Shown here in pieces: positions 22,680-45,534 of a stretch of DNA of 64,000 nucleotides (positions within the stretch are counted from its first letter, which is position 1; each line of letters begins with the position of its first letter). Under the pieces are notes generated by a model. The model had not been told where the DNA came from and searched no databases. It saw only the letters and a program-made list of their open reading frames with translations. Position numbers and translations under genes: made by a program. Source of the stretch: Isoetes taiwanensis. Taxonomy: Eukaryota; Streptophyta; Lycopodiopsida; Isoetales; Isoetaceae. The stretch spans positions 12,480,962 to 12,544,961 of the forward strand of contig JAJEKV010000008.1 of NCBI GenBank assembly GCA_021234155.1. Direction: 5' to 3'.

Positions 22680-24340
22680 TGACTATCCTTCTTGCCATGG
22701 AGAGCTTACTGACCTTCCACCAGTCAAATGTTTCTCTAAACTAAGCAAGAACTCATCCCATATATTCGAGAATGAGGTGCACACTCCGATTGGAACACCC
22801 AACAACATCGAAGAAGGCCCAACCGGCATTATGGCCCAAGGAAAAGCGTTAACCTGAGCAGGAAGTGGCTCATGATCTAATGGCCATATGGCTGCACATT
22901 TGTTCCAATTGAGAAAACGACCTGATGCTATAGAGAAAGAGTTCAATAACTGTTTCGCATTGTAGAGATTATCTTCTGAGGCATCTAAAAAAAGAAAGTA
23001 TCATCAACATATTGGTTACATATTTGTTACGAGCCATCTGTCATCCGCAGCCTTGTTATAACCCTATCTTCCACTGCTGCGTAGCACTTGAAATAGTTCT
23101 TCTGCAACGATGTCCAAAAGGAAAGGCACCAGGGGGCATCCTTGTCTAATGCCCTTGCTTACATAAAAAATAAGAGAGGTCTCTCTAAAAACTAACACAG
23201 ATGCATGTGATGACTTCAACAATTTTGCAACAATGCTGATAAATTCTTATCCACAACCAAAAGCGAGCAACATCATTTCTAGAAAGGACCAACTTATACT
23301 GTTATATGCCTTTTTAAAGTCAAGCTTTAGATAAAGCGACTTTTGATGTGTCTTTTCTTGCCCAATGTATGTCTTCAAAAGAAACCGCTATATTGTTGAA
23401 AATACATCTGCCTGAAATAAATCCCGACTGAACTCTAGATATATGTTCCGTCAAGATAGGTTTTATTTTTTTCGCACATCCTTTTGCTATAATTTTTTAG
23501 AAGGTCGCCAACAAAGAAATAGGTCTCCAGTCCCTATAGATTTTGGGTTCCTTAACCTTTGGGATTAAGGTAATATATCCATGTTTAATTTGTTTGTCCA
23601 ACTTATCCGCTTGTAAAAGTCCCGATAATCTCTATACACAAGATTGTATCCATTCCCTCGAAGAATTCGCTAGAATGCCATCTATACCCCGGGCATTTAT
23701 TTTTTGGCCAAAGAGTAGAAGGCCTCACGATATCATCAATGGATAGCAGTTGTCCGAGTTGTTCCCTTTGCATTGCAGATACTTTAGATACAACCTTTGA
23801 AAGAATTAACTCCTCAAAACAAACTTGAAAGTTTATATTCTTCTTCTTAAAAAAAGCTTCAAAGTGTTTAAAAATAGCCTCCTTCACCTATTGTGGGTTC
23901 TGAATGATGGATCCATCCTCCACCTATAATGAGGACAATGTGGCTGATTGTTTCCTCTGCCTTGCAACCTTAAAAAAGAAACTTGTACATTTGTCACTTT
24001 CCTTGATCCACGTCAATCCTGTTTTGACCTTGACTTATTGAATTTTGACTAGTTCTAGTTTCTTAATTTCGTCTAGAGCTTTTTTTTTTCCTTTTCGCTC
24101 GAGCTAGCACCATTTCTTCTAAGTTTTGTCAATTCTCTGTATAGTGAATTCAGCACAACATTTTCTTCAGCCATCTTATTAGGATCCCAAGTTTTAGCAA
24201 ATTTCATAACTGTTTCTAGAGACGCAATCATTGCTTCCATTTTCCCTTTATTTCTACTAGCTGCAATCCAAATCTGCTTACACTGATCTTAAAGGAGAGC
24301 TTCGAAAACTGTCCTTAATTCAAATATTTGTCTCCTAGCG
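22680..24340 (-). mobile_element. L1-type LINE reverse transcriptase, 5'-truncated and broken
   Basis: Reading from high to low coordinates, fragments give the endonuclease-RT linker (WIKESDKCTSFFFKVARQRK near 23960-24020), KVVSKVSAM and the K-P-G block near 23690, YLKLDFKKAYNSISWSFLE (23280-23345), KGIRQGCPLVPFLLDIVAEE (about 23100-23160), QYVDDTFFFL with the catalytic DD (about 22995-23020), and SGRFLNWNKC with LLGVPIG (22780-22925). This is the order of RT motifs in plant L1 elements. Frame changes and stops separate the blocks, so the copy is dead. No endonuclease is seen upstream of 24340 and no poly-A tail was seen below 22680. Confidence 0.85.
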
Positions 24341-24361
24341 TGGGTCCGAGCTTACTCCCAG

Positions 24362-24387
24362 TTTTCTCGGATAGCGAGTCGAGAACA
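24362..24387. repeat. degenerate palindrome of the copy-1 family
   Basis: TTCTCG, a short divergent centre, then GCGAGTCGAGAAC. The right arm matches the family found at 25.1 and 28.1-28.8 kb; the left arm is damaged. It is the outermost copy on this side. Confidence 0.5.
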
Positions 24388-24869
24388 AGAACAATAGAAC
24401 TCAAACAAAGGAAATTCATTACAGATTGAAACCAAAGTTCTAGTTGAAAAAGAATTTTTATTAATAAATTGAATAGGTACAATGTATTTTACATCGGACG
24501 CAGAGACCATGGCGGTCTTGCTGTCACTACAGTTACATCGTCGTGGTACGGTGGTCCACCTTAGAGGATTAACTTGCAGGGCTTCTTCATGCCATCTGTA
24601 AGCCTTGGGGGCAACCTGAAGAGGTGCCTCTGGAGCCAACGGCTGACCTGTCCACCTGACTTCTCCACCCTCCTCCCGCAGCTCTTCATCGAATATGCTC
24701 CTTCCCCAACCTCCGTGGATGTTATGCAATGCTTGCAAGATGCTTTGAGCTTTATGGACTATCTCAAATTTCTTCCCCTCTTCTTTATCCCGAGTGTGTG
24801 CATAGCGTCTGCACTCACGAGCAACCTTATCCCAAAGGCCGGGTAAGAGTGTAGCGTGAGCGGGATCTG

Positions 24870-24985
24870 TGCCAGAACAGTATCTCTGCCGCCTTGAGCG
24901 GGATCTGTGCCGCCTGGAGCGGTCTCTCTGAGGCCTAAACGGGATCTGTGCTGGTGCGGGATCTGTGCCTGAACCACCTGGAGCA
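24870..24985. repeat. short repeats of GCGGGATCTGTGCC
   Basis: GAGCGGGATCTGTGCC-like units occur four times with variable spacers (GCCTGGAGCGG or CTGAACC). They generate the Arg/Gly-rich ORFs seen here. Not interpreted as coding. Confidence 0.5.
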
Positions 24986-25097
24986 AGGAGAGTCTATGAT
25001 TAACAATTACGGTGCCATTAGTCAAAACGAAGAAAAGAATGGTGAATTCAAAATACATTCATTTCATGTAACTACATCTAATCACGTGGCAAGTAGT

Positions 25098-25371
25098 GCC
25101 TTTCTCGACTCGCGAGTCGAGAAAGGCCCGAAAAAGTCAAAGTACAACCATTTTCATTAGAATATGGCTGCATCCAATCACACACGGAAGCATACAAATG
25201 GTCTCGTCAATGAGACAAGCAATGCCTTTCTCGACTCGCGAGTCGAGAAAGGCCCAGGAAAACCAATGTACAACCATTATAGAATATGACTGCATCCAGT
25301 CACACAAACAAACATACACATAGTTTCATCAATAGGACAAGCATGCCTTTCTCGACTCGCGAGTCGAGAAA
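25098..25371. repeat. tandem 125-bp repeats, each with a long perfect palindrome
   Basis: Three units of about 125 bp lie 100-380 bases past the stop codon of the multidomain gene, probably in its 3' UTR. Each contains the palindrome whose left arm is GCCTTTCTCGACTCG followed by its exact reverse complement: 30 bases at 25098-25127 and 25224-25253. The third copy keeps a perfect 24-base core at 25348-25371. The spacers share (A/T)GACTGCATCCAATCACAC-like and GACAAGCA(A)TG blocks but have drifted, while the palindromes are nearly invariant. Confidence 0.92.
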
Positions 25372-25474
25372 GCCAGCGAAAACTCAATGTACAAGTATAT
25401 TCATTACAAAATATAGTACATTTCTTCATGTTTCTTTACAAAATTTACACAACTCGACTATCTGAAAGCAGAGG

Positions 25475-28400
25475 TCACTCTTCTTGATCACCATAATATT
25501 TGTCGTCCATAGCTTTCATGATCGCGCTGGTCTCTGGATCGACCTGCTTGAGGTTCGGATAGTTCCTAATCACATCGGCCACAAGAATGGCAAACAGGGA
25601 TTCCGCCAATACAGGGACGAGATTCATAGACAACTACCTATCCGTTTCATACTCTTCTGGACGATAAGTCTTGTCAATGATTGTATTTTACGAGTTATGA
25701 TAGCACTTGTAGGCGGAGTCGTCTATGATCCGCGTGTTGTGTTTGTTAAAGTCCGGGAATTGTTCATAAACCCTGTCCAGCCTTTTCACCATAATAGGCT
25801 TCCCCTTTGTGATGGCTGGATCGAGGTCTCACACATGCTCGACCCTTTCGTTTCCCCAAACAAACTTGAACTTCAAAACTGGAAGGCCGAGAACACCGAG
25901 GACATTGACAATATTTTTCTTTGCCATACAAGACCATATGGCCACTTCGAATCCCCGTTCCAGGCACCAATCAATAATCTCCTTTGCTTTAGGCCGGGGA
26001 TACACGATTTTAGACCCCACTTTTGTCGGTATCTGCGAGGTGTTAAGCTCAGGGACGTCTTTATCATGGTATACTGCAACTAATACTCCATTGACGTCAA
26101 ATATTACAAGCTTGGTGGGGCCCGATGGATCCCAATTGAAGTTTGGCTCTGACCAGATTTCCTCTTGATCGGGATCCATATGCGGGATCATTATTTTTTC
26201 GGGTCCTTTCTTGCTGCCCGCACTGTCTTGCTCTTGACTGCCTTTCTTGGATCCAGTATCCTCGTGATGTGAACTGCCAGTAGATCCTTGTGATATTGAC
26301 AATGATCCCGATTCGCTGTAATCGATGTCCCCGGAATGATGAAAACGCCGATAGGAACGCGTTTTCGCCGCGAAGCCGGAAAAGAAAAAGTTAAAGACTC
26401 GGAGCGTTTCCCGACTTCCGAGAGCAAAGTGAACTCACCTCAATCTCAGGTTCTCGAGAATATGTTCGGCAACATCCTCGTCTAAACCTTGGACATTCTC
26501 GTCTCCGTCATCTTTTCTCTCCCCGGGTCGCCGTTTGTCTTCGTCATCATCATCCCATCGCTTCCATTTTTCTTCCTCCCTTTGAAATGCTCATGAAGCA
26601 GGTCCAGGTATGACCGAATGATTTCAACCATGTCCTTATTTCCAACCACGGATATTGGTTTCATTCCATACAGTATAGCCCCCTGAGAGAACAGGCCATT
26701 CATGTACCACTCGCATACAATATGATCTTCCTCGACCAAGCTGGTTATGAAGTACTTGATAACTCTTGGCCGGATAGGAATTCTATGTATTGGACCTGTC
26801 GCACCATCAGTGCTGACTTTGTCCATCAATGGCACATCCTCCATAAATGTGCCACCCTTCCAGGGTTCCATCTGCTCTTGAGAAATCATGAACTTGTCGA
26901 GATAGTGGTGTTCGCTCGACCACCACTTGTCCAGGTCTGCAGCCGATCTTGAAACCAAAACCAAAACTACATTGGCAAAACTTGGTGCCTTTAGCAGTCC
27001 AAGTCTACACTCATGTTCCAGTTCGTATATGGAATACAAGATCTTGTTGGTGAAGTTAATATCAGCTGCCCATTGTGACACAACAGTTGTCTGATTGCCC
27101 GGCATGCAAAAGATAAGGAAACTGAAAGTATCCAGCTCGGTCATGTCGAGATACGTCTTGTACCACTGCTCAATGTCAGCCTTTTCATAAAATAGGGTGG
27201 GGTCTTCGATCATATTCATGGCAAATAGTGCCACGGGCCCACCCAGGTGCCAGTTCCAGACCACCAAACCCCTTGTGTCCCAAGGTTACCAGGAATGGAG
27301 GGGAGCTATCATCGATCTTAAATGGGACCACCCCGAATCCAAGCTTCCTCTTCAGAATTGCCATAGCACGTTCAGGAAAGGGGAGGGTTTTGACGTTACG
27401 CTTTAGCTTGGTGTTGATGTAGGGTTGACATAGACGGTTCAACTCCTTCATGTCTTCCTCATCAAGCGCAGCCTTCTCCTTATAATAATCAAAATCATGG
27501 TCTGCATTGGAGGCAAGATTGCAGAACTCTGTGATGCCTTCTTCCAATGCACGCCGTCTCTTTAGGATTGTGGCATAATCCGTTGCGTCCTGCATTTTTG
27601 AACTTCTACTTTTCCTTAGCAGGATTGTTCCATCCAGGATTCTGCCCTGTAGATCAAGCGTTTCCTTGTCCGTTAGGCCATGTATCCTTTTCATGAATTG
27701 CTTGTCGAACAACTTTGGGTCCGGCCTACACGGCAATTCTCCATTGCTGTCCTTCAGCTTGCCTCTTGTCCATTGAGCCCATATATCAGTCCATTTTTTC
27801 CAGACCGCCTCAGTGCTAAGAATGAGGTCATATTGGTCTGATAGAGATTCCCTGCACTTTCTTGGTGTTCTCTTCTTCTTCTCGTCTTCATCCTCTCCCT
27901 CATCATCTTCCTGGCCTTCCAGAAGAACATACCTGCAGAGTTTCTCAAAGGTCTTCCACTTATCGGAGGGGGCCCTGTTTCCTTTAGGACGCTGAGGACA
28001 ACCCAATGCTTTTCACTGTTGCCTAGCGTGTATGATCTGGTCAGGATACGGGCTGCATTCATTAAATGTCACAATGTCAGAGCATGAAAGTATCTCCTAA
28101 CACCCGAAGGAAACAATAAGCAGGAGGGTGCAAGGGGTTTCTCGACTCGCGAGTCGAGAATACCCACAGGAGAGGAGAAAACATAGGAGAGTCAAGGCCA
28201 GAGCAAAAGCATCGCGCATTCCCAAATCTTTGCTTTCACGCCTCTTCGAACGATGCAACTTAGGATATAAACTAAGCGACATTGCCCGAAGAGGCGGGAA
28301 AGAAAGATTGGGAAGACTCGATGCTTTCACTCTTCAACCATTAATTTCTAATGTTTTCTCTATTACCCTGGAGTTTCTTGACTCGCGAGTCGGGAAAGTC

Positions 28401-30123
28401 AGAGGACCACAGGAAAGGGGAAGATTCAAGGGACTTTCTCGACTCGCGAGTCAAGAATACCCACAGGAGAGGAGAGAACATAGAAGGAGAGTGAATGCCA
28501 GAGGGAAAGCACCGCTTATTCCCAAATCCTTGCTTGCCCCGCCTCTTCGAACGATGCAACTTAGGAAATAAACTAAGCGACATTGCCCGAAGAGGCGAGG
28601 GAAGAAAGGATGGGAAGGCTCGATGCTTTCACTCGTCAACCCTTAATCTCTAATGTTCTGTCTTTTGCCCTAGGGTATCTCGACTCGCGAGTCGAGAAAG
28701 TAAGAGGAGCACAGGAAAGGCGAAGATTGAAGGGGCTTTCTCGACCCGCGAGTCGAGAAAGCCCCTTCAATCTTTACTTTTCTTTACTTCTCTGGGGTTT
28801 GCGAGTCGAGAAACCCCTGAATCAGAAACAGTAATTTACCTTATGTAGCTGGCACTTGCTGCTATTGTGTTCTGGCAGTGGCTAATGCTGGCGAGCTCCG
28901 TTGGTGGCGTGTCCGCTGAAAGAACTCTGCACTCTCGTTTGGAATATCTGTCCTTGATCCTTTGCGGCACTTCCTTTTCCGTCTGCAATACCTGCGCTGC
29001 CCTCACTGAATGTTGGCCGCCCACAACCCAAAACCTGACGTCTTTTCCCTTCAGGTCTTCCTCAGACTTCCAGCTGAACAACTCACCGGTCGATCTGCTG
29101 AATGGTATGACATCCGCAGGCATTGGATCTGCAACAAGATGTCGCACCATCAAGTTCAGAATCTCCAACATGTGTGCTGGATTAAATTCCCTGTGGTTGA
29201 ACAAGACAGCATCTCTTGTGCAAACCTTGAGGCGTCTGATGTCCAGCAGCAGCTTGTGTGATATCCCTAATGGATAATACTGAGCCAGCCACTCCATCTT
29301 CTGGGCCCCTCTCTGTGATTTCCTAATCTGCTCATCTGGATCCAAGAATTGGGAGTCGACCATATCTTCCTCTTCGTCAGCATCTGAATCCTCCCGTGTA
29401 CTCTCTGCTTCATCTGCAGTCTTGTCCGGAGTTTTTTCTTTATGAACTACAATATCCATGGAAACTGCCGAGTGCTTTAGAGTCTTTAGCACCCTGGACG
29501 TAACGATCCCAGTGTTGAACAGCTTCTCCCTCACCCTGGAAATCTCCATTCCAAGCTCCCTGGATGTCAGGGTTCCGGCCTCCTTCATCCCTTCCAGATC
29601 CTTCCACCCAAGGTTCTGACAATTTAAAGGCGCCGGCCTTTTGTCGGTCCCCTTCGACTTGCTCATTGAAGAGTGAGAGTAATTGGATACTGATAACTTC
29701 TTCGTGTGGTAGAACTTACTCTTCAGGCAGTCTTCCACATACAATGTAAGATGCTTCGAATCTGGGGCAGAGACGGAGAGCACAACATCGACCTTCTTGT
29801 ACTTGTCGCCGGAGCTCTTCTTATCCCTTTGCCACAGAAACAGATCTTTCTCCTTCCCACTTGTTGATACTTCGACATACCACCAAGAATCTGCTGGTGT
29901 ATCAAGTAGCTCTGTCTCCAATCCCTCGATAACGAAGAACGGAGTTCTGCCAGTGATCACTAGCGTCTCCGCAGTGAATGCCGCAAAGACGTAAAGATGG
30001 ATCGATAAAAGGTATCCCGACCGAACACAAAACCGAGAGCTCACCCGAGTCACGTCTTTCTTTTCTTGGTGCCGCTTTTGAACCAACTTCCGCTCCGGCC
30101 CGCTTCTTCAATGGAGTCGTCAT
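25475..30123 (-). CDS. ParB-like / methyltransferase-like / FCP1-like HAD fusion protein, copy 1
   Basis: Four exons. Exon 1 runs from ATG 30123 to 30045 (MTTPLKKRAGAEVG...); exon 2 ends at 28840 and its start is uncertain; exon 3 is 28052-26439; exon 4 is 26315-25475. Exon 2 ends in a ParB/sulfiredoxin-like domain (PMPADVIPFSR, then FWVVGGQHSVRAAQVLQ). Exon 3 is acidic and helical, then shows a degenerate beta-class DNA methyltransferase pattern: EDPTLFYEKADIEQW at the motif IV position, then ITSLVEEDHIVCEWYMNGLF at motif I, so the usual Gly-rich SAM loop is poorly kept. Exon 4 is an FCP1/NIF-type HAD domain: KLVIFDVNGVL (second Asp is Asn), AIWSCMAKKN, NTRIIDDSAYK. Lesions: TGA at 28013-28015 where copy 2 has Trp; one extra base near 27275; one missing A near 26585; stops at 25829-25831, 25688-25690 and 25634-25636. 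Nuclear action on DNA is inference; it may be a decaying selfish or domesticated gene. Confidence 0.72.
28053..28839 (-). repeat. intron 2 of copy 1: palindrome array in a 300-bp tandem duplication
   Basis: The intron has donor GTAAAT (28839) and acceptor TGCAG (28053). It holds palindromes with arm TTTCTCGACTCG or close variants at 28138, 28374, 28435, 28676 and 28738, plus one lacking its left arm at about 28794. Positions repeat at about 300 bp because a unit with two palindromes is tandemly duplicated; its spacer includes GCCTCTTCGAACGATGCAAC and AACTAAGCGACATTGCCCGA in both units. The palindrome at 28738 extends to 52 bases (28723-28774) with a single central mismatch pair. The copy at 28374 carries two changes that leave T-G pairs if transcribed. 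Confidence 0.9.
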
Positions 30124-30249
30124 ATTCAGATGCCCCGCATCCTCTTGCTCGCTCAAACTCCTTTGTAAATTGAGCCTCTTCCACTTTGGAGGTTTTAGGA
30201 CTACACGTAAAAAAGGTCGGGCGTGTTCTTAAATTTGAAATTAAGGACA

Positions 30250-30612
30250 TACAATCATTCAAGGGAAAAAAGCGGGGCTAAGGGTACAAAGACGCCAGCT
30301 TTTTAGCCCGCCCAAACACCAATTCGAAATTCATTCATTTCGGGGACTTAGTGAGCGCAGCGGAGATTTCCGGCGCTTTAGTTTTACTCGGCATTGGCGA
30401 CTTTGGGGTTATATTACATCGACCGGAGGCCCTTCGATTTGAGCGAGTTCACGGATGGCGCCACGACGCTGTAAGCTCCTAACAGCGCCTTACTCTCTGT
30501 CTATTTCTAACTGCGTGTCTTTTTGCAAATAGTTGATTTGATCGATGAGCACGGGGCTAAGGTAGCAAGCGGAGAGGAGCTGTAACACACGGGAACTCTT
30601 CACTGCAGCGCC
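30250..30612. other. intergenic stretch between divergent genes
   Basis: This lies between the start of the minus-strand multidomain gene and the plus-strand DUF7869-like gene, so it may hold both promoters. I see no clear TATA box. GGCGCC-type and GCTTTTTAGC-type short palindromes are present. Confidence 0.35.
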
Positions 30613-31146
30613 ATGGAAGAGGGATACACGAGAATCGCTTTGATACAAGTATTTGATGCGGATGCATTGTTGATGAGGCCAACAGAAGAAGCCAAGACTC
30701 TCGGTGAGGCTGCGAGATCTGTGATACAATGGCCCAAGGAATTCCTACGTGAAGAGGTGAGTTTCAGAAAGGCCTTTTTCATTCTCAAAGTGCAACACTT
30801 GCATTCAACTCAAGGATACACTTGCATCAACTGCAATAGAGAAAGAAAGAATGGCAATTAGGGAGCAATTTGCAGATCACCAAAGGGACCAAATATCATG
30901 TAGACAGCTGTATTGGCCTTGGAGAACATTTTCTCAGATGCAGCCTGACAGATTTTTGTGTCTAATTCATGATAAGATGGACCAATACAAGACTTTCTTG
31001 CCAAAGCTAGATCCTTTACCCAAGCGTTGTCAAAACGCTTTTCAGATGAAAGTAAGTCTGGCGGGTGTCTTAACACATGGTCATGGAACTGGAACCTATG
31101 GTCATTTTGTGCTTGATCTATGGAGGGATGATCCAAACTTCCATGT

Positions 31147-31606
31147 GAGCTACCGGCCCTTTGATGGGCTTTCGGCACTCTTCCACTGAGTCATTCTTCA
31201 TGTGTGCCCATTACACATGCTCCAGCATTCCAACATTCCCCCTTAATGGGCACACCAATCCATTCCAGCCTTCACCACAATCCACATGCTTCCCTCCTCG
31301 GGCAACTCCACCACTGCGGGAGTTGGGCTTTCCACTGGCCAAGCTTTGCTCATTCTAACCCCTACACCACTGGGGATTATCCCGGTGCAGTTAAGCACCC
31401 TCTACTTGGGACCATGGCTCTGATACCATGTTGAGAAATGAGATTTCTATGATTGGGTAGACAGGCTAGGGATCGAACCCAGGACCTCTTGCTTGCAAGC
31501 CAAGTACTTTACCACTGAGCTACCGGCCCTTTGATGGGCTTTCGGTACTCTTCCACTGAGTCATTCTTCATGTGTGCCCATTACACATGCTCCAGCATTC
31601 CAACAT
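31147..31606 (-). mobile_element. SINE-like insertion with partial tandem copy
   Basis: A 90-bp block (31147-31236) recurs almost exactly at 31517-31606, 370 bp on, at the junctions with the interrupted DUF7869-like gene. Between them, on the minus strand, lies a tRNA-like head and a non-coding body ending near GCTCTGATACCATGTTGAGA, a stretch reminiscent of plant SINE tails. The arrangement fits a SINE-like unit with a partial second copy. Confidence 0.65.
31457..31529 (-). repeat. tRNA-Ala(TGC)-like sequence, SINE head
   Basis: GGGCCGGTAGCTCAGTGG, an anticodon arm CTTGG-CTTGCAA-GCAAG (anticodon TGC) and a T arm CTGGG-TTCGATC-CCTAG are present. The acceptor pairing is imperfect and the D and anticodon stems each have a mismatch, so this is a tRNA-derived repeat rather than a functional tRNA gene. 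Confidence 0.65.
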
Positions 31607-33627
31607 CATCAACCGCTTTGTTACCAAAGGCAGATAAAAAAGCTCACATCCAAGGTGTCCAGTGAATCAAGGAGGACTGGGATGATTTCCCCTTACTTGA
31701 GAAACAACTACCAGAGGAGCTATGTGTTCAATTGGACAACTGTTGGAAAGAAAACAAGAATAGATGGATGTTTGGGGCAATGTCATACTTGACAGCAGTG
31801 GGAGTATTCAAAGTTGTGAAAGTGGGATTCATGATAGTTGGGCATATGCATGATGATATAGATGCATTCTTTGGAACTTTCTCCACCAAGGTCAAGGGAG
31901 AAAACGTGACTAGTCTCCCTGAACTAATGGATGTGTTTGAGAGTTGCATTGACCCCAACCCAATGGCTTTCTTGATGGATGAGGTTGCAGATTGGAAATC
32001 ATTTGTCGAGGGATACTTGCTATATGGTAAGGATCAGTTGGACAGACACACAAAGCCACTTCAATTCAAGGTTTGGTTTAGGGATGGAATACCAATCATG
32101 CAATATAAGTGGAGACCAGAGTTGTGGCAACGTGGTGCTGCTGTGAAGTTCTCATTCCTAAAGGGCAGCCAAAACCACTACCTCCCTTCAAGACTGTTAA
32201 AGACTCTAGCCAACTAGTGAAGGGCATCAAGGATTATATAACACACTGGGATGATGTTCGAAATAGAAAGCACACCTCCACTCTTAAGAAAAATCACATG
32301 GACTCCCTACCAGATGGGAGGGTTCTCAAGAAGCAAGCACGTCTAAGAATGTTCACTTGGGTCCTAACAAAGGTTCCAAGTGGTTTGTGGGAAGTAAGGC
32401 CTCAAAGCCGAAGTGGTTTGATCTTCCTGAGTGGGATCCCTTTGAGGACATCAAGGAAGGATACTTTGTGCTAGTAAGGCCTGATGATGAGGATTGTCCA
32501 ATATGGTTAGGGGTGGCACTCTCTGATGTAACCACCACTATGGCTGATGGAGAGGAGTTGCGTCCTGGATTCCAAATTCAATATTGGGAGCCCATTGGAA
32601 GACACAAGAAGGGCAACTTGAAGGAGCAATACACCGACTGCCGGGAGAAGAAGTGGAGGGCAAATCATGCTGATCCTCAAAGGAGGGAATTGGTGGAGTG
32701 TGTGGTATGGTCATATCCAAGTTCTCACATTGCAAAGGACAACACACACAAGATCCCAAAAAGGGAGATGGACAAAGCCATGAGCAACCTCCATGCTATA
32801 TCATTGTATGAGGGTAGATAATATTGAGAAGCTTGAAAACTTTCTCAACTAGTGGTTTGTAAAATTTATGAGGAAAACAAGTTACCCAATTCTTTGTGTG
32901 TGATGTGTAATTCTATTCAAGCAATCAATTCAGAATTTTTTTTTCTATAGTATGAGTCCCATTTTCAGTCCGAGTCCCAAAATTTGAGATTTGACCCACT
33001 TTAATTAAATGCGACTTTTAACCATCATTCAAGTACCATTATTCACTGACAGATAGGCAGCTGAGTAGATACAGGGAATTGTACTACTCACACAAGATGT
33101 TGGCAGATCTCTATAGTACACTACTGCTTCTGATGAGTAAGCAAGATATTCACCAGCTGCTGATGGAAAATGGATCTGAATTCAATAGCTACAAGTTTGG
33201 GACAAACTCCGGTTTCTATTGGGTGTCTACAATGCCATATTTGATCAAATTATGCAATCCCCATCACCTTAGCCATCATCCTTTACCACTCTTCATTAGC
33301 CTTATCTAAATCGTGCTTCCATTTCATATTTGCTACTGCTCAGTAATTAATCCTCCTCTTGTCCAACATTTTGCTCAAGCACTTGGAAAGAATTTTGTCC
33401 TTGCAGGTTTTTTGAGATCGACTGTTCATGATTGATGCTGCTTTCAGGTTCACATATTAGCTCCTTCAATAGGGGCATGGCAGAGTTAATTACCTTTCCT
33501 TATGCAATATCTTGTTACTTCTAGCAGAGCTCTTTTTGGTTCATTTGAACAACTCTATACTGCTACTTAATTATGTAATTGTTGCTGTTATGATGTAGCT
33601 AATGAGAACACTACTCTCATTAGTAAC

Positions 33628-33690
33628 ATTTATGTATGACTTTTATTAATTAATGGAAAAAACACTCTTACCTTAAAAAAAAAAAATTGG
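33628..33690 (+). repeat. poly-A tail of a retroposon
   Basis: GACTTTTATTAATTAATGG, then AAAAAACACTCTTACCTT, then an A-run. A closely related string with a longer A-run occurs at 54803-54868, so both are 3' ends of the same retroposon family, body unidentified. Confidence 0.65.
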
Positions 33691-33904
33691 GATGATGTCT
33701 TGATTTTGGGATACATTTTTAATTGCAAGTTTTTAGTAACTTGATTAAATTCACTAACGTTAACTTAAAATCACACATCTTAACTTAAATTCACACACCT
33801 TAACTTCAAATTACAAAATCATATATCAACTGCTCATGTAGTACACAACTTTTCATAACTGTGACTGATACATATTAATGAAGAAAGCATATTTACATAG
33901 TTTT

Positions 33905-36290
33905 TTATTTTTCCTCCAGCATCCCCAATGATATGATAGCCTTATTCCTTACATCCTGAGGTATTGTAACTCTCACATTTCTACCTGGAATAGTTTTTGG
34001 AGTCCACGAGTACAATACGGTTTCAATGTCTAGCCAAAGATCAGGATCAAAAGGATTTCTCCTCCACCTCTTTGTCCAACAATCTGAATATCTTTCTTTA
34101 TCGGTGACATTACTCAATTGATGCACTGGACACCACCATTCTACACGCACCTTATTGAAGTTAACATTACCTTCTTCTTTGCAAATATCTGAGATGGTGT
34201 ATCCCAACCACACTGGATAGGTATCTAGATCTACTGGTTTTACTACTACAAATTGGTGGCACTCCACGTCAATAGAAGCTTCATAACAATCCATGCCTAG
34301 ATATTTTGGCCTATCCTTCTTAGGGCCAACATAGTGTTTGTCAGATTGAGGAGGAGCATATGCCTTAACAATGCTACTAATAGTACCATCATCTTCGTCA
34401 GCACCTGCTAATGTTTTCCACATACTTTTAGGGAACCACCCTTCTTTCAGCTCTTCTGAGGATGTGTCTACCTCATCCAACAAGTTAATCACCTTCTTCC
34501 AGTAATCTATCAATGCACGATTAGTCTCATCCGAATTAGTTTGCCAATGCTTGATGTAGTCATTGATGCCATCCTTAGTCAATCCCAATTGTTTCACTTC
34601 TTCATTCGATTTTAGAGCCTTTGGTTGATCTGAAGGTATCATAAGCTTGCCATTCGCATCCCTATGCCAAATTTCTGTCCCACCTCTCCACTTCTCCTCT
34701 GAAGGTCTCATTTTCCATTCCATGATTAGAATACCTTCTCTCACCCAAAAAGTGAATTGAAGAGGTCTAGAATGACCTTCCATGTCGAGAGCATAACATC
34801 CACAAAACTCTTCCAATCAGGCACTTCTTATATGAGAGATCTTATAGGAGATGGAGTAGTACATCCATGAAATATTCTCAGTAGCCTAGGAAAGTTGGTC
34901 ACTATCTGTTGTCTTAAGACATAACTATATTTTCCAAACAATGCATCCACATCCTCATGAGTATGTCCGGGCATTAGGAACCCCAAATTGACTCTTTCAA
35001 AAGTACCTACAATTAGGTCCATGCCTCCTGAACCTTGCCTTGCTAAACTTTTCAATATTGTTAGGGTTTTCATCCAACAATGCACTATGTAGTGCCTGGC
35101 TAGCTATAGGATCTTGGAGGTGACCATTATAACCATTCTCATAGTTTCTTAAACACCTCATGATACTCCCAATGTAAAAATCTGGGCCATCACTCCACAA
35201 CTCCAAACTAAAATGCCCATAGTAGGTTTGAGACTGCCGTGCAAGATTGCCCCAGTCATTGAAATCTGCAAAGGGTATGATCTTTCACATGACTTAGGTA
35301 TGTACTTGAATTGTGGAAGACAAGTCTTTTGTTGGTCATATGGTCCTTCATATATTCCCTTATCTTAGCCCTTAGACTTGGTTGCACAGTCTTATCTAGT
35401 GTCTCCTTCAGCTTAGCGCATAAATTGCACTTTGCAAAGTTATTTGAAGTTGCTATGGTCACATGCTTGAAATGCTTATTCCATAGCCTACTAAAACGGG
35501 CTAGGATATAGACGCCACTCCAAGTTCCCGAAGCAATGCATTTATTTCCTCTAATATGCTCTTCTGGGTACAATGGGATGGCAATCTCTTTTCAACAACT
35601 CCTCTACCCTGTACATCCTTCTTACTCTTATGTGGCATGCTTTTTGCATTGAAATCCACATATCTTTCAAATATTTCCTTTGCAGCTATAGTTCTTGAGG
35701 TAGACCTTACCAGGCCAGTGTTCCCGTGCAATGCAATTCTACTGCCAGTTTCATGTCTCTTTAGTTGTGCTAAGAAGCGGTTGTAATTCCATGTATAGCC
35801 ATCCATGCTTTTGAACATATCCACTTTCCGTTCAATGGAAATCTTTTCTTCTTTGATCTTTCATCCCGAATTGCATAGCCAAATATGGTGTACATGAAAT
35901 TCCTCCTGCTATCACACTTATTTTCCTAATATGTACCTCTTTCTCCCACCATCTCGTCTATTGTGAACATTCTAATACATGAGGCCCAACAACATTCACT
36001 TCCCCAAACCTTCATCAAGGCTTCAGGAGAACAATCATAATCTGACTTGCATCTTTTGATGGGATAATGTTTGAAAGTTGGAAGTGGCCTCTTGCTACAC
36101 TATGTGAATATTATTGACAATAGTTCTGCATCTATAGGTAACATGTAGTTCCCCTCCAGTTGAATACTGTCCCTAGGCCATGCCACAATAGTTGCAACCT
36201 CTAGTTGCTTCACACAAGCAAGGCATTCTTGTTTGCCTGACCCCTTTTCCTTCCAATTGTCATATAATTTTGAGATTGCCACACCTAACC
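33905..36290 (-). pseudogene. DUF7869-like transposon-type protein, copy B
   Basis: Read from high to low: VKQLEVATIVAWPRDSIQLE (WP-motif block, about 36160-36200), SKAWMAIHGI, TSRTIAAKEIFERYVDFN, KHVTIATSNNFAKCNLCAK (about 35420-35470), HFSLELWSDGPDFYIGS, then LGFLMPGHTHEDVDALFGKY (about 34920-34990). A 303-codon C-terminal frame (34816-33905) is similar to the C-terminus of copy A over its length: SRPLQFTFWVREG, PVWLGYTISDI, ERYSDCWTKRWRRNPFDP. Compared with copy A, the stretch holding MDQYKT and the preceding YWPWRTF block is not found, suggesting an internal deletion near 35240. Frame changes and stops (for example near 34815) show decay. The two copies are tail to tail, about 1.1 kb apart. 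Confidence 0.75.
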
Positions 36291-36941
36291 TGTCCTCTCC
36301 TAATCTTTCATCATTGACTGCATTGATAGGATCTGCTAGAACAATAATCCCTTCTCCTACTACCTCTCTATTGCATTCATGCAGGATCTTGACCTTTTTG
36401 TTTTTTCAATCGACCCGAGTATAAAGTACAATTTCCTTTCCTTTGGCATCATCCTTTTCATTTGGGGTCTTTTCCTTTCAATTGCCATCATCAACATCAT
36501 TTAGAGTCTTTTCCTTTCCTTGGGCATCATCTTCATCATTTGGGGATTTTTCCTTGCCTTGGTCATCATCATTGGGGGCATTTTTTTAGCATGTTACATG
36601 CCATTGACCTTTAATACATACAAACATAGAATAAGTTAGTATATCCAAAAAACATCTCCCCAACATGTCCTTAAATGAAAGCATACTTTTTTTAATCAAT
36701 AAAGAATAGCATACTTTATAAAAAATTGTGAGAGGGAGTTCTTTGATAACTTCTATAATAACTTCTTCGATACTATCTATCTATATGTATGCATCTTTGT
36801 TTATGATGACATTTTATTTCTATTACATCTAAGGCACCATAAGGCTATGCATGTCATCAATTCCTCATATATCTTATTTTATGTCATATAAAATCTGGTA
36901 AGTAATGCTCTCTGCCCTTAAGTAGATCTATGTATCATATG

Positions 36942-36967
36942 CTTTTTTTTTTTTTTTTTTTTTTTTT
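36942..36967 (+). repeat. T homopolymer, about 26 bases
   Basis: Pure T-run just before the first palindrome of the copy-2 family. It may be the reversed poly-A of a retroposon or a simple slippage repeat. Confidence 0.8.
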
Positions 36968-36989
36968 ATACTATGATATGCTAGTATGG

Positions 36990-37725
36990 ACGAAATCGCG
37001 CTTGGTGCATTTTAATTTTGCCCTTTTCATTTCCTGCAAATTTATTCAAAATGTGCCAGGCGCATATAGAGTAGAACTCTTAAAAAAACACCCTTTAGAA
37101 AACGCGTCTGGCGCATTTTGAACATAAAACTTTTCAGATTATTTTCTGGCGAGAGGAATATTATTTTCTAATTAGTTAATTTCTCTCGTTCTAGTGCATT
37201 TCACATGGCTTATTCTCATTCAAGTACACTTCCTTTGGACGACAATCAACGCTGGACCATGTACAAGTTACTTCTTAATTGTGCTGTTCAAAACCTACAA
37301 AAAGAGATGGATAAGCCATTCGACAATCTTTATGTAAGGCCATGGGAATGCTACCATCGCATCACGGGGTTTATCCGACTCTTCAGGCTCTTAGTGTATC
37401 TCATGCCAACAAATAAATATGAGGATATGATTAGGAAGGCCAGAGATCGACGGGATACTCTGATATGGGGACTCAACATTCCCAATGAATGGGATGACGG
37501 TGTCATATCAAAGTGGTACAGTGGCCACGTGACTCGTTATCTTGCTGATCAAGTGGGCCTTTGTGACATTTTGTAGAGATATGTACAGCCTTATTGTGTT
37601 AGATATGTACAGCCTCCTATGTTAGTTTGGAAAAAACTTGCGCCTGGCGCATTTTGACACACAAAAAAAAAATCTACATTTTATTTTGTGAATATTAATA
37701 TAATCTCGCGCCTGGCGCAATTTTG
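36990..37725. repeat. copy-2-family palindromes around the 123-codon ORF
   Basis: Five more or less degenerate copies of the palindrome with arm AAATCGCGCC lie here: about 36993, 37048 and 37099 upstream of the ORF, and 37633 and 37701 downstream. All keep the central GCC(T/A)GG or a one-base variant. The same family fills introns of copy 2, linking this stretch to that gene. Confidence 0.75.
37205..37576 (+). CDS. hypothetical 123-residue protein
   Basis: One uninterrupted frame starting at ATG 37205 (MAYSHSSTLPLDDNQRWTMY) and ending at 37576. The product is mixed alpha-helical in appearance, with several Trp, Arg and Tyr residues (YVRPWECYHRITGFIRLF; IWGLNIPNEWDDGVISKWY). It has no signal peptide or membrane segment and no family I recognise. 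It is unusual here in being intact. Palindromes of the copy-2 family flank it on both sides, so it may be a passenger or an accessory gene of the same unit as copy 2 at 38.7 kb. There is no TATA box I would insist on. Confidence 0.45.
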   Translation: MAYSHSSTLPLDDNQRWTMYKLLLNCAVQNLQKEMDKPFDNLYVRPWECYHRITGFIRLFRLLVYLMPTNKYEDMIRKARDRRDTLIWGLNIPNEWDDGVISKWYSGHVTRYLADQVGLCDIL

Positions 37726-38026
37726 TACTGCAGACTTTTATCTCACAAGACTTTTATTATGTTTTCTTTTATATGCAATGTCAGAAACGTTGAAATCCTT
37801 TGATGCCCTCTAGTCAGTCTGACCAACCTCAAGAAACTACACATTTTAATTAACGTGTGGTTTTCTGGGGTTGATAATACTGGCTAAAGAGCATAAAAGA
37901 ATGTTCAATATTCATACCATGACGCACATGTTATGATATATTTAGATTATGTTTCAGTAGTCAACAGAATTATACACACACCTTTTTCAGACGTTCTTTT
38001 GGCCATGCTACAATTGTGCCCACGCT

Positions 38027-38281
38027 TTAGCCAACTGTATCGCCACCGGGATGTCTTCGCGGAAGAGCCTCATCCTCATAATTGCAATTTATAATCGAAA
38101 TCTTACAGAAACTATTTCCAAGAGGAACACCATGGCACATAGAACTTGGATTCAGATCTTCGACTTTACATAATCCTACTCGGCGCTTCAAGTTTGCTGT
38201 TAAAAGATAACATTCTCCGACACTGATAAACAACCAGAATGATAGAATTGGCATGAAAAAAAACAAAACGAAGCTGTGCAT
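38027..38281 (-). other. hypothetical ORF, 84 codons
   Basis: The frame from about 38220 to 38027 reads VGECYLLTANLKRRVGLCKV and continues to PRRHPGGDTVG. It is divergent from copy 2 and lies between it and the 123-codon ORF. The composition looks like coding sequence, but no family is recognised and the N-terminus is doubtful. Confidence 0.25.
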
Positions 38282-38593
38282 ATTCAGAATGGAATGACAC
38301 TCACCGTAGTTCAGCCGACATGATCGATTGAAGACTTGGAAGATGGTCGATTGAAGACGCTCAAGATGCTATTAGAAGCGGGTCGGTGATCTTGGAAGAT
38401 TAGGTGGAAGTAGCTTGCCACATATGCATTTTTGAAAATAAGAATTAATTATTTTCTTGAAATTGCAATAAAAAGAAAAGCACATTAAAAAAATGTAAAT
38501 GAGCGGGATGGGCGGTTACTTAAGGTGGTATAATTTTAAAATGACGGGAATTTGAAATGACGGTTCTAATCTGACGGCTTAGATTATCAACCC

Positions 38594-38605
38594 ATATATA
38601 TAAAT
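38594..38605 (+). promoter_or_regulatory. TATA box of copy 2
   Basis: CATATATATAAAT about 50-60 bases upstream of the ATG at 38655, which starts a short Gly/Ser-rich exon. The spacing fits a TATA box with a short 5' leader. Confidence 0.5.
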
Positions 38606-39059
38606 TTGAACCAAAACTCCAGTCTCATAACATATCTTCCGAACTTGCAGTTCTATGGCATCTGGAGGATCTGGCAGCCGCGGCTGAGGCGCAGGTAGAG
38701 GTGGGCGACATGCCAAAGCAACCCAGGATCTTGTTGAACAAGCTGAAAGTACTAATCCAGCTAGCCGTTCAGGTAATCATCAAAATTTTCTTATATATTT
38801 TGTTTCTGCGTCCCTCTTTTTGTTAGGTTTATCGGATGTTTTTCTTTAATACTAGAGTTATTATCCGCTAAGAAGCACATGTCCTCTAATACTTCAGTTC
38901 ATATATCCCAAGATGTATGCAAATATATGCTATGACGAGATATCTTTATTTTTTGATATTTCTTCATGTTGTGTTTTCGTTCATTTCTGTATCCACTATT
39001 TTTAGTCTTCTATAGTTAGTTGTGCTTTCAAATGAAGATTAAAATCTCTAAGGTCGGTT

Positions 39060-39230
39060 TTAAAGCGCGCCAAACGTGTATTTGTTGCATATATTCCAAG
39101 AATTATATTAATTTCTTATCTCTGTATCCTATACTGACAAACCCCTTTTGTTTCGGACAAAATGCCCCTGGCGCAATTTAGACTAAGATTATAATCTCTC
39201 AAAGTTTCAAAGCGCGCCAAGCGCGTTTTT
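39060..39230. repeat. copy-2-family palindromes in intron 1
   Basis: Degenerate copies lie at about 39062, 39159 and 39205 (AAAGCGCGCCAA-GCGCGTTTTTG and variants). They are less regular than those in intron 2. Confidence 0.6.
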
Positions 39231-40423
39231 GTTGCATACGTTGCAAGTTAGCATATATTTTCACATTTCAACATTAACGTTATGCTATCATTCTGCAGGA
39301 ACACAAAGGACAATCAAAAGGAAAATCAAACTCAGTCAAACATCTTTAGCCCAGAAAAAGCAAAGGACAGATGAAGACGTTACCGTTACAGACCTACAGC
39401 ATGTGTGTTGACGTTAGAATATACATCTGGAATAATAAAGGCTCAGGTAGAACCTCCATGTCCAGAAGAAGATCTTATAGAGGGGTCAGAATGATATGTC
39501 GAGATCTTTAAGACTAATGGGAAGACAGATCTTATTTTCATGTCTAGGGTAAAAGAGACTGATTAAATGAAGAAGCAGGGAATTGTTATCACATGCGAAG
39601 AATAGGACGATTCATATTGTTCAGTGTTCGTTGAAGTGGGGCAAAAAAAATAAGAAGAGCCTAAAAAAGATTAATCGGTGCAGTTCTAGTTATTTTAAAG
39701 AGACTGTCCTAAGATCAGACGACACTGTCGACACCTTGTTCAAATTTGGTTGGACAGTTGGTGAGCCATTGACACCTAAAAGAATATGCGAAGGGCTTTC
39801 AACTGTACGACGTGCCATCAGCACGAGGCCCTCAGGCAGTGTCTATATGCAGGTATTGAAGGATAAGGAAGATGCAAGTTCTAGAGGCAGGGACACTACA
39901 GAAGTTGCAGCAGGCCTTATAAGTGATGATGACAAGGCCAGGCAGTTGGAGGCGATGAGCAAGCTCAAAAAATATGCTGACAAGTATCCACTGGGCCTTA
40001 GCTTCACCCATCCCGTCCACGTCGATAGGTTTTTCAGGTCGACTAAAGCTATTTATGTCAGCAGAAGTTACGACAAGCAGCACTCCTTGGAGTTAGTCAA
40101 CAGCATGATCGAAAATCTAGGGCAGATACCAATGCCGGCAAATGTAATGCCTTACGATACGAAGAGAGGAAGGTACTCATGTGGAACAAGCTGGAGGACT
40201 TCATCGACAACCAAGACGTACATTTCATGATAATAGATGGCCAGCACTCAATTGAGGCTCAGAAGGTTCTGATGTGGAAGGCACAGAATACTGGAAATCA
40301 GTTGTTCTATAGGCTGTATTCGGTCAGCAACTGCAGGCTCTTGAGCGGCTCAACAACTCCTACCGAGCTAGCCGAAATCAGTGCACTTCTTAACGACATG
40401 GGAAAAACGTTTCTGTACAAAAG

Positions 40424-40814
40424 GTAAATCTTTCTTCCCTCTCTTTTCGTTTTCGTATTTGCAAATCGTGCCAGGCATGATTTGCCTATTCAGAAACTCG
40501 ATACGTTTAACTGAGTATTCTGGTTAGTCAAATCGTGCCTGGCACGATTTTCTTCTATTTTGAAATCGCGCCAGACGCGATTTGCATATTCAAAAACGAG
40601 AATGCTTCAACCAGTGAAAGCTGCCTCCTTTCAAAATACGCAAATCGCGCCTGGCGCGATTTCCCTTCTATTCTGAAATCGCGCCAGACGTGATTTGCAT
40701 TTTCAGAAACGGGACTGTGTGTTAACCAGTGAAAGCGGTCTCTTTTTAGAATACGCAAATCGCATCTGGCGCAATTTGTTGTTAATTTGGAACTAACAGA
40801 TTTATTTTTCGCAG
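40424..40814 (+). repeat. intron 2 of copy 2: tandem palindrome array
   Basis: The intron starts GTAAAT and ends TTCGCAG, at the same site and phase as intron 2 of copy 1. It holds six palindromes (arm AAATCGCGCC, one central base, reverse complement) at 40463, 40530, 40563, 40642, 40676 and 40757. They form pairs within units of about 100-113 bp that share TTCA(A/G)AAAC, AACCAGTGAAAGC and AATACGCAAATCGC. The copy at 40642 is perfect. The copy at 40530 is also perfect but with arm AAATCGTGCC, meaning matched changes on both sides. Confidence 0.92.
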
Positions 40815-42736
40815 CCCCTATATACAGCAATTGCGGCATGCTCATAACCAATGGATAGAGTATGGGAAATCAATGCCAACCAGACAGGGTCAGTCTAAAA
40901 GCGTTGAATTCAAATTGCTAGAAAGGACACTTTGTCAGACTATAATACAAGATAAGAGTAAGAGCACCAGGGCGAAGAGAAAAAAAGGAGATGAAATGGA
41001 GATCCTTCCGAAGCCCCTACTATACCCAAGGATGCCTGCAAAATAATTTTTGCTTATGACCAGGTCTGAGAAAAATGGAACGAATTCTGGGATGCCTACG
41101 TGGAGAAGAAGTTGTCTGATTCACAAGGCAAATTTCCTCCTGTTGACACATCAATATTCGATCTCCATGTCACAGAGATGAGGAAGTCCCAGGGATTAGA
41201 CGATGAAGAACTGATTTCGGTTCTGGACAGGTGCATCAGAAAAGAAGTCCTTTACAAGAAAAGTTCTGCAGCGAAGGACAAGGTATCATTTGAAGACGCC
41301 TGCGACCAACTGAAAAATATTCGAGTGCTCAGGATGGCAGTTGGAGCGGAGTTACAAAAGGCTTACAGGTGAGTGGTCTAGGACTAATGCAAAAATACGA
41401 CGTCTCCAATGATGATCTGAAGAAGTATGTTTTTTGGTCGAAAGACTTTGTCAAACAGCAGAAGTTGAAAAACGTTGCAAACCTGCGTGGGATTCACACG
41501 AAAGTGGCATCCGACTTGAAAATAAAAGTCGCATTGGTGAAGTAGACTCCGAAGAAGAATCCACATTCTTTTACCAAGTGTCCACTGGTTTTAATACAAT
41601 TCCAGATGTGGGTAAAGGACCGCATGATATCACACTCTTCATGCTTGATAACCGAGGCATCAGATGGTCGCTTCATGACTGTAATACATTCTATGATACA
41701 TGCGGTGGTTTTACGACAGAAATGCATTATACAATTGTCACAATTTACCCTCCGACATGTCCTATGCATATGCTCTATCTGCTGCAAAGGATTTAGAATG
41801 CGTTAAAGTGATACGGCAAGCAATCCTTATAGATGAAAATAGGGACAGTGAGTTTAGCACAGAAAGTAAAATCTCTCATGTGCTAATCATTATGATAGCC
41901 ATGATGGATGATAAGGAATATGAAAGGCTTAAGGAGAAACCAGAAGGCAAAAAACTTACATGGCAGTGCTATCAGCTAGATGAACCCCTCCTGCAAAACG
42001 TCTTCTATCTTGAGCAAACTATTGAAGATAAGGGGAAGGGTGTCGTAGATGTGGAACAGCGAGAACTTGAAGAGGAAGATGAGAAAGTAAACCAGCTCCT
42101 AACGTCAATTAAGGGGATGCTAAACAAGAACGCGTTCTCTATGGGCTTTTCTCATTATCTCGTTGAAGCATTTTGCGCATTGGGGGCAACTTGCTGGGAG
42201 CTTTATGTCGGAGGTTACATCGATAGGGAAGCTTTGAAGTTAGCAAGGAAATGCCAAAGCGTCGTCCTCGATGATCGATCCAAGCATTTCTTAGAGCTCC
42301 TTTTTTAGAAAGTGCTAGAGGAAGCACCTAGGGGTCCAATCGGCAGTGCAAAAAGCAAAGCTTCTAGCTCTAAGGCTGAAATACCTGCAGATTTGGCTAA
42401 AGAACGGGAGGCTATGAGACGGCACCTGGCTAGCATCAATATGGATATCACCAAAGAGCAGATAGTGGTTCCGGATCCTGTCGAAACGTTCGACATGCCT
42501 GTGAACATCGAAGATAAAGAATAGGATGAAAATAATAAGGATGAAGATAATGACAGGGATCGAGAGTCGAAATCTGAAAGCTCTAACCAGGTTAGCGTAA
42601 AGAGTAATGAACTATCAACCATAGTTCAAACTATACAGATCTTAACTGATGTGGTTGATGCTTCTAGCAGACCGGAGACAACACAGAATAAAGAAGCAAT
42701 GGAAGAATACACCACGAGGATTGATGAAGAAGAAAG

Positions 42737-42938
42737 GTATTGTGGCCAAGCTCGTTGTCTTATGATATTCATGCATTTTACTAATGACGCGCATATGGAA
42801 ATCGCACCTGGCGCGATTTAGAGTTTCCTTTGGTTTCATATTTTTAGAATTTGTTGACATGCTTCTTTGTATAAATCGCGCCTGGCGCATTTTCTTATTC
42901 CATTTCTTTCATCTCATACGTATCTGTTTGCGTTACAG
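42737..42938 (+). repeat. intron 3 of copy 2 with two palindromes
   Basis: A 202-bp intron between GTATTG and TTACAG. Palindromes of the AAATCGCGCC family are at 42799-42819 (one mismatch) and 42873-42893. The matching 123-bp intron of copy 1 (26438-26316) lacks this family but has the inverted pair GAAAACGC / GCGTTTTC near 26340-26365. Confidence 0.8.
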
Positions 42939-43808
42939 ACATAGTTCAGCTTCCCCAAAAATACTGGTCTTTGATTTGAATGGTGTGCTATGCAGAACGT
43001 TACCTAAAGCAACATTTGATAAGTCATGATATGCACAGAAACCATTTGAAATGCATACCAAATATGTTTACCTGCGCCCTTATCTGAAAGAGATGTTGGA
43101 CCAGGCCTTTAGTCTGTTTCGTTGTGCAATTTGGTCATCTATGGAACATGGAAATATACATGAAGTTTTGAGAGTAGTGCCTGAGCTAAATAGAGATTGG
43201 GCGTCCATCTAGGATCAAAGCAAATGTGCTTCATTTACAAACCCTAAGGATCTGACAGGTAAAAAAATATTTGTGAAATGCTTGCGCACCATGATGGATG
43301 CTCTAGGTGTTGAGGAAAAGGAAGGCATGATCATGGTTGATGATGACGCCCTCAAGTGTTGCTTCAATCAGTCACAGTCATTAAATCCACGATCCTATCA
43401 TCCTAATATGTTTAGCACAGATGACTTTCTACTTCGTTTTATCAGTGCCTTGCAAGAAATAGCTTCCGAAAAATCGGTCAAAGAGATACAAACACTATAT
43501 CCACAACTTGATTGGATGGGGGAAATTGACAGGGACCTTGAGAAAATTGTTCTAGAAAGGGAACTATTTTGATATATGTATACCGAAAATATACTTTGCA
43601 TAAATATTTTGAATATGAAATATATTTTACACAAAAGCTTTTGAATATATATTGTGTTATTGTAAAATAACTTTGCAATGTTCTATGGTGTTGATCTTCT
43701 CTGATTATTAGAGACGAAATACAACTGTCTGTAGCAGCATTATTGGTTCTGTATATGTATTGTATTATTCTATTATGTATATGATTTACTATACGTCCAA
43801 TAATTTGT

Positions 43809-44060
43809 ATGTATATACCGTCAATAATTTTGATGGGTATAAATAGATGTGCATCATTGTACCTCCAGCGAGGCATAGAACTTGAAGACTGGCTGACTGT
43901 CGTTGCTATGAATCACGTCTGCTTCTATCCTGATCCCTTCGATGTTGCGATCCATCTGCTATGGAATCTAGATCATGGTTTGTTCATGATCAAAAAGGAT
44001 CTCGGGGAGTTTTTCCCGTTGATGATGAATCGAATAGTTTTTGGCATTTATGTTGTTTGA
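43809..44060 (+). other. hypothetical ORF, 83 codons
   Basis: The frame includes LQRGIELEDWLTVVAMNHVC and FYPDPFDVAIHLLWNLDHGL. It follows copy 2 directly. The composition is protein-like, but no family is recognised. It could be an exon of another gene or a remnant. Confidence 0.25.
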
Positions 44061-44370: not shown

Positions 44371-44387
44371 GCCCGGCGTTGCCGGGC
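44371..44387. other. short perfect hairpin
   Basis: GCCCGGC-GTT-GCCGGGC: a 7-bp GC stem with a 3-base loop in A/T-rich surroundings. No flanking T-run pattern or gene end gives it a role. Confidence 0.4.
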
Positions 44388-44389
44388 TT

Positions 44390-45530: not shown

Positions 45531-45534
45531 CAGC

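Follow-up and report, generated by a model that had tools for sequence, protein, structure and literature searches.

Palindrome arrays as candidate recognition sites in a DNA transposon family of Isoetes taiwanensis encoding a ParB/Srx-like protein

A 64,000-nt stretch of the Isoetes taiwanensis genome (contig JAJEKV010000008.1; C1089:12480962-12544961), hereafter the window, carries two copies of a gene for a ParB-like protein, and in both the second intron is filled with palindromes, of one sequence in copy 1 and of another in copy 2. Why should the same intron hold an array in each copy, built from different motifs? A first-pass annotation, made from the letters of the window, proposed co-diverging protein and binding site, as in ParB/parS or modification systems, and named independent local amplification as the alternative. 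Comparison with the whole assembly (1,658,258,908 bases in 1110 contigs) shows that each of the two gene copies is a DNA transposon, the two adjoining end to end, and that both come from a large family. On balance, the palindromes are more likely than not recognition sites for a protein encoded by this ~12-kb terminal inverted repeat (TIR) transposon family, which would mark its own subfamily in the way VANC proteins do for VANDAL elements.

The copies agree in the position and phase of intron 2 (AG/GTAAAT; 28053-28839 on the minus strand and 40424-40814 on the plus strand), as first annotated. Copy 1 carries family-1 sites there (24 bp, TTTCTCGACTCG/CGAGTCGAGAAA), and a 302-bp unit present in 2.1 copies, with site spacings of 61, 241, 61 and 236 bp, agrees with the tandem palindrome units described earlier. 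The family-2 sites of copy 2 (21 bp, AAATCGCGCC N GGCGCGATTT) are spaced by 67, 33, 79, 34 and 81 bp, or two per ~112 bp, again as described. The window has 12 exact palindromes with arms of at least 8 bp, seven of which belong to families 1 and 2, compared with 0-6 in each of 20 mononucleotide shuffles. When one mismatch is allowed, it contains 17 family-1 and 19 family-2 half-sites, each in its own element, and none in the other family's element or outside both elements. The statement that each family occurs only at its own locus therefore holds inside the window and fails for the genome, where the 24-bp family-1 palindrome has 2686 matches and the 21-bp family-2 palindrome (AAATCGCGCCNGGCGCGATTT) 623, with none for the reversed control of either, and TTTCTCGACTCG has 5820 + 5856 matches versus 146 + 131 for the reversed pattern. 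Nor are the palindromes confined to intron 2; this, and the transposon nature of both copies, had been missed.

The transposons are recognized by their ends. The terminus AAGTCGNATTTAATTAAAGTGGG has 1475 + 1520 exact matches genome-wide (reversed control, 0), six loci stop at the same base with unrelated flanks, and a target duplication borders 11 of 11 pairs with exact termini, read for element-1-type ends (4 bp in ten, 5 bp in one). Element 1, the former copy 1 (24303-33017, minus strand), has an intact terminus on the side of its DUF7869 gene, with one mismatch to the family-1 terminus in its TIR (32995-33017, minus strand). The terminus on the NIF side is missing at 24303, and since the homology of other loci continues past this point to a common terminus, that side is incomplete. 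Element 2, the former copy 2 (33020-48733, plus strand), represents a second subfamily and ends in a right terminal repeat (48711-48733, plus strand) with one mismatch to the terminus of a relative, L003; of its left terminus no more than the initial 13 bases can be recognized, and no matching target duplication was found for it. Both full-length elements read have the order terminus, DUF7869 gene, spacer, ParB-like exon, further exons, NIF exon, terminus, and the protein with ParB/Srx-like and NIF-phosphatase parts is encoded divergently from the DUF7869 protein. Among 100 termini listed there are 27 neighbouring facing pairs less than 16 kb apart, 16 of 2.6-5.8 kb and 11 of 10.7-14.6 kb. The structure may not be uniform: retrotransposon-like frames (by eye) lie upstream of the ParB-like exon at C1028, and the left terminus was not found in the upstream sequence read at C1028 or C1044. 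The ParB-like exons of the two copies gave 2875 and 2897 first-look candidates and a third query 3216, of which the best 150 of each were scored; several reading frames are broken, so many copies have decayed.

Although scattered through the genome, the palindromes lie mainly within this one transposon family, and not without relation to the gene. Thirty-two clusters account for 48 of the 50 sites among the matches listed; for 24 of them a terminus facing inward is at most 14 kb away, and 10 are enclosed by a facing pair, where terminus density would, by our own estimate, predict about 1 of 32. For the 21-mer and the 24-mer, 4 kb was read around the first ten clusters listed. Nine of the 21-mer clusters are embedded in extended homology to element 2 or to relatives of it, covering 2743-4021 bases; the tenth has 173. 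With element 1, two 24-mer clusters share more than 2.7 kb, one shares 1.0 kb and the other seven 0-588 bases; a terminus is recognizable in seven of the ten. The loci L054, L055, L056 and L060 have another, gene-poor repeat in common.

Do the arrays of other homologues follow the protein? Forty-five loci were read: 20 copy-2-like (52-90% identity to the query), 20 copy-1-like (71-96%), both window copies and three longer loci, the first 40 picked by us from the two match lists. A motif-blind search (10-bp arms, at least 9 paired; dinucleotide shuffles as control) found 148 palindromes in the intron-2 stretches versus 4.05 in shuffles, distributed over 42 of the 45 loci (none in L015, L038 and L041), and one in all 45 exon stretches. 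Most listed family-1 sites have an even centre and most copy-2-side sites an odd one. The clades differ in their arms: TCTCGACTCG; AAATCGCGCC; AAAACGCGCC or ATTTCTTCAT, merged as one class because L013 has both; and AANNCACGCC. When mapped on the ParB-like tree, in which 42 rows were labelled, the three rows lacking palindromes were left unlabelled and C60 was flagged as a long branch, these four classes require three changes, which is the minimum; shuffled labels gave a mean of 19.5, and none of 200 shuffles was as low. Two of the four clades have starred support and the others 88 and 78. At up to three mismatches the family-1 clade has 83 sites of its own and none of the other families, and the other three clades have no family-1 site; the copy-2-side clades overlap at this threshold, the third clade, for instance, having 15 family-2 matches. 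The expectation that each homologue carries its own palindrome, diverging along with the ParB-like domain, is thus largely borne out, short of co-divergence beyond shared descent.

For the third and most divergent clade, CACGCC palindromes were expected in 14 further loci, and under the strict test this failed in ten; six passed, four of them with the CACGCC core. Few loci pass because the motif, ATTCACGCC-N-GGCGTGCTT, is asymmetric and palindromic in its 13-bp core alone. With as many as five mismatches allowed, a threshold chosen after the strict test, it was found in 19 of 19 loci (143 sites versus 0.36 in shuffles), and the exact motif has 250 + 262 genome-wide matches versus 0 in the control. 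Sixty-one of 124 site spacings in this clade are exactly 32 bp; those of the other clades are 60-61, 34 and 78, and ~41 bp. In intron 2 of L093, L097 and other third-clade loci the asymmetric sites switch orientation midway, so that the intron becomes a single large inverted array; the seven sites listed for L022 all point the same way.

Several comparisons point to the motif itself as the unit. Sites also occur in other introns, spacers, element ends and gene-less 4-kb copies. In the window, three more perfect family-1 palindromes (25098-25372) lie 3' of the NIF exon of element 1, and degenerate family-2 sites are found 5' of the ParB-like gene of element 2 (36993-37723) and in its first intron, upstream of the ParB-like exon (39062-39229); two family-2 sites (42799-42893) directly precede the NIF stretch, and a half-site at 48686 stands beside the right terminal repeat. 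With coding limits set by us from open reading frames (ORFs) and matches, the half-sites falling in coding stretches number 0/17, 0/19, 0/23, 2/15 and 1/8. A 4-kb copy that has no matches to the element proteins keeps the ends and array DNA of autonomous elements, with 65-82 bp in common at one end and 104-195 bp at the other. For sites more than 1 kb apart in one element, 12.0, 11.7, 13.1, 12.4 and 12.2 of 40 flanking positions match, compared with 12.1, 12.0, 11.6, 11.6 and 11.6 at random places, a slight excess in three of the five groups; spread by the copying of larger segments was rejected on these near-random flanks. Within arrays the means are 13.8-20.0 of 40, with values up to 39, so that arrays grow by tandem duplication, and it is the site that spreads over the element. 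Local amplification accordingly accounts for growth inside arrays and is insufficient alone, because distant sites in one element share the motif and little or no flank. Palindromy reaches 0 or 1 bp past the core in 34 of 44 (family 1) and 29 of 35 (family 2) perfect sites, with single flank positions above shuffles, among them positions 2 and 7 of family 1 and positions 3 and 6 of family 2. Complementary double changes between arms number 4, 5, 2 and 16, where 2.4, 3.4, 6.5 and 56.1 are expected; the arms of a site are without compensation, and upkeep of single palindromes as hairpins was rejected for this reason.

The DUF7869 protein is probably the transposase. Its domain in element 1 (31666-32214, plus strand), presumed to have that function, matches PF25273 with E 1.2e-35 (123 bits, cut-off 26). 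This model gave 9907 first-look candidates, about three times the ParB-like number, the best 150 of which were scored and were all above cut-off; DUF7869 therefore probably occurs outside this element family as well. The second protein contains conserved positions that include DGQHS and CR-L. Three routes weakly support a ParB/Srx-type domain in it. A PHROG ParB-like profile matched 13 of 27 members (best E 0.0028) and Pfam DndB matched eight of 27 below its cut-off (best 3.1e-4), with no Pfam ParB model among the matches listed for these 27. Since the AlphaFold model of the whole exon had a pLDDT (predicted local distance difference test) of 36.8, a 137-aa domain was modelled instead (pLDDT 69.8); Foldseek gave no match to this model at E 0.001 or better, and in a second structural comparison sulfiredoxins filled the first seven rows (Z 3.4-4.2; next row 2.7). 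The last exon encodes a NIF-type phosphatase, with PF03031 at E 9.8e-18 in L003, above cut-off. Sequence searches of the PDB were of no use for the ParB-like exon (five matches, E 0.18-0.25) and for DUF7869 (two, at E 0.73 and 1.4); the NIF exon had a single weak match, to UBLCP1 (E 0.043). In viral contigs, 31 stretches fit a peptide pattern and tblastn identified no relatives among them.

These results are consistent with recognition of the palindromes by a DNA-binding protein that the element encodes, most likely the ParB-like one, which would occupy arrays of regular spacing as a dimer. A high density of sites in introns, spacers and ends would then mark autonomous and non-autonomous copies of the subfamily alike, and the marking would most likely prevent silencing or promote movement, as it does with VANC in the VANDAL elements; with each split into subfamilies, protein and motif would have changed together. 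A more specific version, which we put forward as speculation and regard as improbable, has a ParB/Srx-like clamp loading at the spaced palindromes and spreading, with the fused FCP1/NIF-type phosphatase targeting RNA polymerase II or chromatin so as to protect its own subfamily from silencing, giving at least four subfamily-specific protein-site pairs in one genome.

Other explanations must be weighed against recognition by the ParB-like protein. Subterminal repeats of some DNA transposons serve the assembly of the transposition complex, and the sites could likewise be bound by the DUF7869 protein, leaving the ParB-like protein another task. Their retention in non-autonomous copies and the position of some of them near termini (48686 in the window; many clusters 0.7-1.2 kb from a terminus) would suit this, but in the window elements and L003 most sites are far inside and densest in intron 2 of the ParB-like gene, and we consider such a role doubtful. 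Still less probable, in our estimation, is that the arrays act as RNA, with long intron-2 hairpins influencing splicing or yielding small RNAs. The two window introns do fold far beyond shuffles (z -15.0 and -22.6), as do introns of 21 loci (z -5.0 to -38.0, where exon stretches range from +1.5 to -2.1), values down to z -14.5 remain in families 1 and 2 with scrambled cores, and the midway change of orientation in third-clade introns is frequent. Yet the arms of a site lack compensation, the third-clade motif is asymmetric and scrambling its cores removes most folding (z 0.1 to -4.0), and sites are also present in spacers, ends and gene-less copies. That the palindromes are neutral repeats, arisen by chance, amplified in tandem and inherited with the element without any binding, strikes us as very unlikely. 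Tandem units are present, flanks within an array are similar and motif class follows the tree, as that explanation would have it; against it, an element has one and the same 19-24-bp site in several places between near-random flanks, sites are rare in coding DNA and present in gene-less copies, and palindromy mostly ends within 1 bp of the core.

The recognition-site reading has its own weak points. Besides the folding of the introns, a motif class that follows the tree is expected from descent alone. The assignment of the ParB/Srx-type domain is weak, and profile and structure searches recognized no DNA-binding domain in the element proteins. Eight of the 32 palindrome clusters have no nearby terminus among the termini listed. 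Beside five other ParB-like loci, with 3-12 kb read upstream, tblastn gave no DUF7869 match, and for this reason the place of DUF7869 in the element rests on the window and the two full-length elements. Core identity exceeds that of the spacers in five groups (0.855-0.942 versus 0.675-0.838), a comparison confounded by site choice, since the selection of near-consensus sites in the reference accounts for roughly half of the excess or more. We infer, moreover, the binding of the sites, the identity of the binder, the role in anti-silencing or transposition and a change that was reciprocal and not merely inherited. With these points counted, the binding-site idea of the first-pass annotation comes out strengthened, with the ParB-like protein as presumed binder, and its ParB/parS or modification-system frame is replaced by that of a transposon motif-array system.

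The remaining parts of the two elements can be placed as follows. In element 1, the ParB/Srx-like exon (28840-29969, minus strand) has GGQHS where most relatives have DGQHS, and the NIF/FCP1-like phosphatase exon (25832-26434, minus strand) matches PF03031 below cut-off (E 0.0026). Within its DUF7869 gene, 31147-31606 contains two near-identical ~90-bp direct repeats around ~280 bp, resembling a small insertion by eye. In element 2, a DUF7869-like gene stretch (33908-35082, minus strand) was found by tblastn with the element-1 protein (38% over ~100 aa, E 1e-22), and the ORF at 33908-34816 alone has no Pfam match. A small ORF of 123 aa upstream of the ParB-like gene (37205-37573, plus strand) has a relative at C1044 and no Pfam match. 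The ParB/Srx-like exon stretch (40179-40423, plus strand) has DGQHS, its frame broken just upstream, and the NIF-like stretch (42946-43179, plus strand) was found by tblastn with the element-1 NIF exon (37%, E 1e-8). Homology to two relatives (L002 and L003) ends at 44353, and the interval from there to the right terminus, 44354-48670, is probably an insert. A locus with the same ParB-like exon on another contig (L001; C923:1376500-1384500) was considered as a second transposition and rejected, as its identity to the window is 96.9% throughout the 8 kb read; it is therefore an allelic copy or a haplotig left in the assembly. Elsewhere in the window, 9094-9786 holds tandem arrays of a 10-bp unit, itself palindromic and rich in TTCTAGAA (Tandem Repeats Finder), which recalls heat-shock-element spacing. 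A 263-aa ORF with a YMDD motif (6829-7620) looks reverse-transcriptase-like by eye only, no search having been made, and an ORF at 61609-62361, with a weak TrkH match below cut-off (E 0.0023), is perhaps a fragment of an HKT-type transporter.

Common terminal inverted repeats and a target duplication of fixed length place the family among the TIR DNA transposons. CACTA/EnSpm elements have CACTA-like ends and a 3-bp duplication, compared with ends in AAGTCG and 4 bp here, and VANDAL elements, which are of Mutator type, have a 9-bp target duplication, again compared with 4 bp. In ParB/parS partition systems, a protein with a ParB/Srx-type domain acts on clustered palindromic sites, its CTP-dependent clamp spreading from the palindrome. 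The possible ParB/Srx-type domain and the clustered palindromic sites are shared with the present elements, which differ in being nuclear plant transposons with thousands of copies, no Pfam ParB match and a phosphatase fusion. Fungal DNA transposons encoding TET/JBP carry an accessory gene thought to help evade silencing (PMC12730594). The combination of DNA transposon and accessory gene is similar, but the accessory enzyme is another one, the description available mentions no motif arrays, and the target duplications of the KDZ cases described are of 7-8 bp, not the 4 bp found here (PMC12730594).

Titles and abstract openings in the open-access literature gave no description of a system like the present one; subscription journals are mostly outside that scope, so one may be published. 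To our knowledge, VANDAL/VANC is the only known system in which a transposon protein and non-coding motif arrays are reported to diverge together. VANC21 binds a short motif that occurs densely in VANDAL21 of Arabidopsis, in its introns, between its genes and in terminal non-coding DNA, the target motifs lie in tandem repeats that turn over, and VANC6 has other motifs (PMC5735166). The system is described as sequence-specific anti-silencing, with binding and demethylation shown for VANC (PMC5735166, PMC10398659). The present family is similar in having a second protein besides a transposase gene (here presumed), dense motifs in introns, spacers and terminal non-coding DNA of its own family, often in tandem repeats, and related subfamilies with different motifs. 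VANC motifs are 9 bp long and in one orientation, the word palindrome being absent from PMC5735166; the present sites measure 19-24 bp and have a palindromic core. Here the second protein is ParB/Srx-like with a NIF phosphatase, and the other gene encodes DUF7869. Because target duplication, motif form and recognized protein domains differ, the family is not a member of VANDAL/VANC, though VANC-like in its proposed working. If that working is confirmed, the Isoetes elements would show what a eukaryotic transposon can use a ParB/Srx-like domain for and would stand beside VANDAL/VANC as an apparently independent case in a lycophyte, with another type of protein and sharply separated motif classes, which make specificity testable as a simple protein-by-site matrix.

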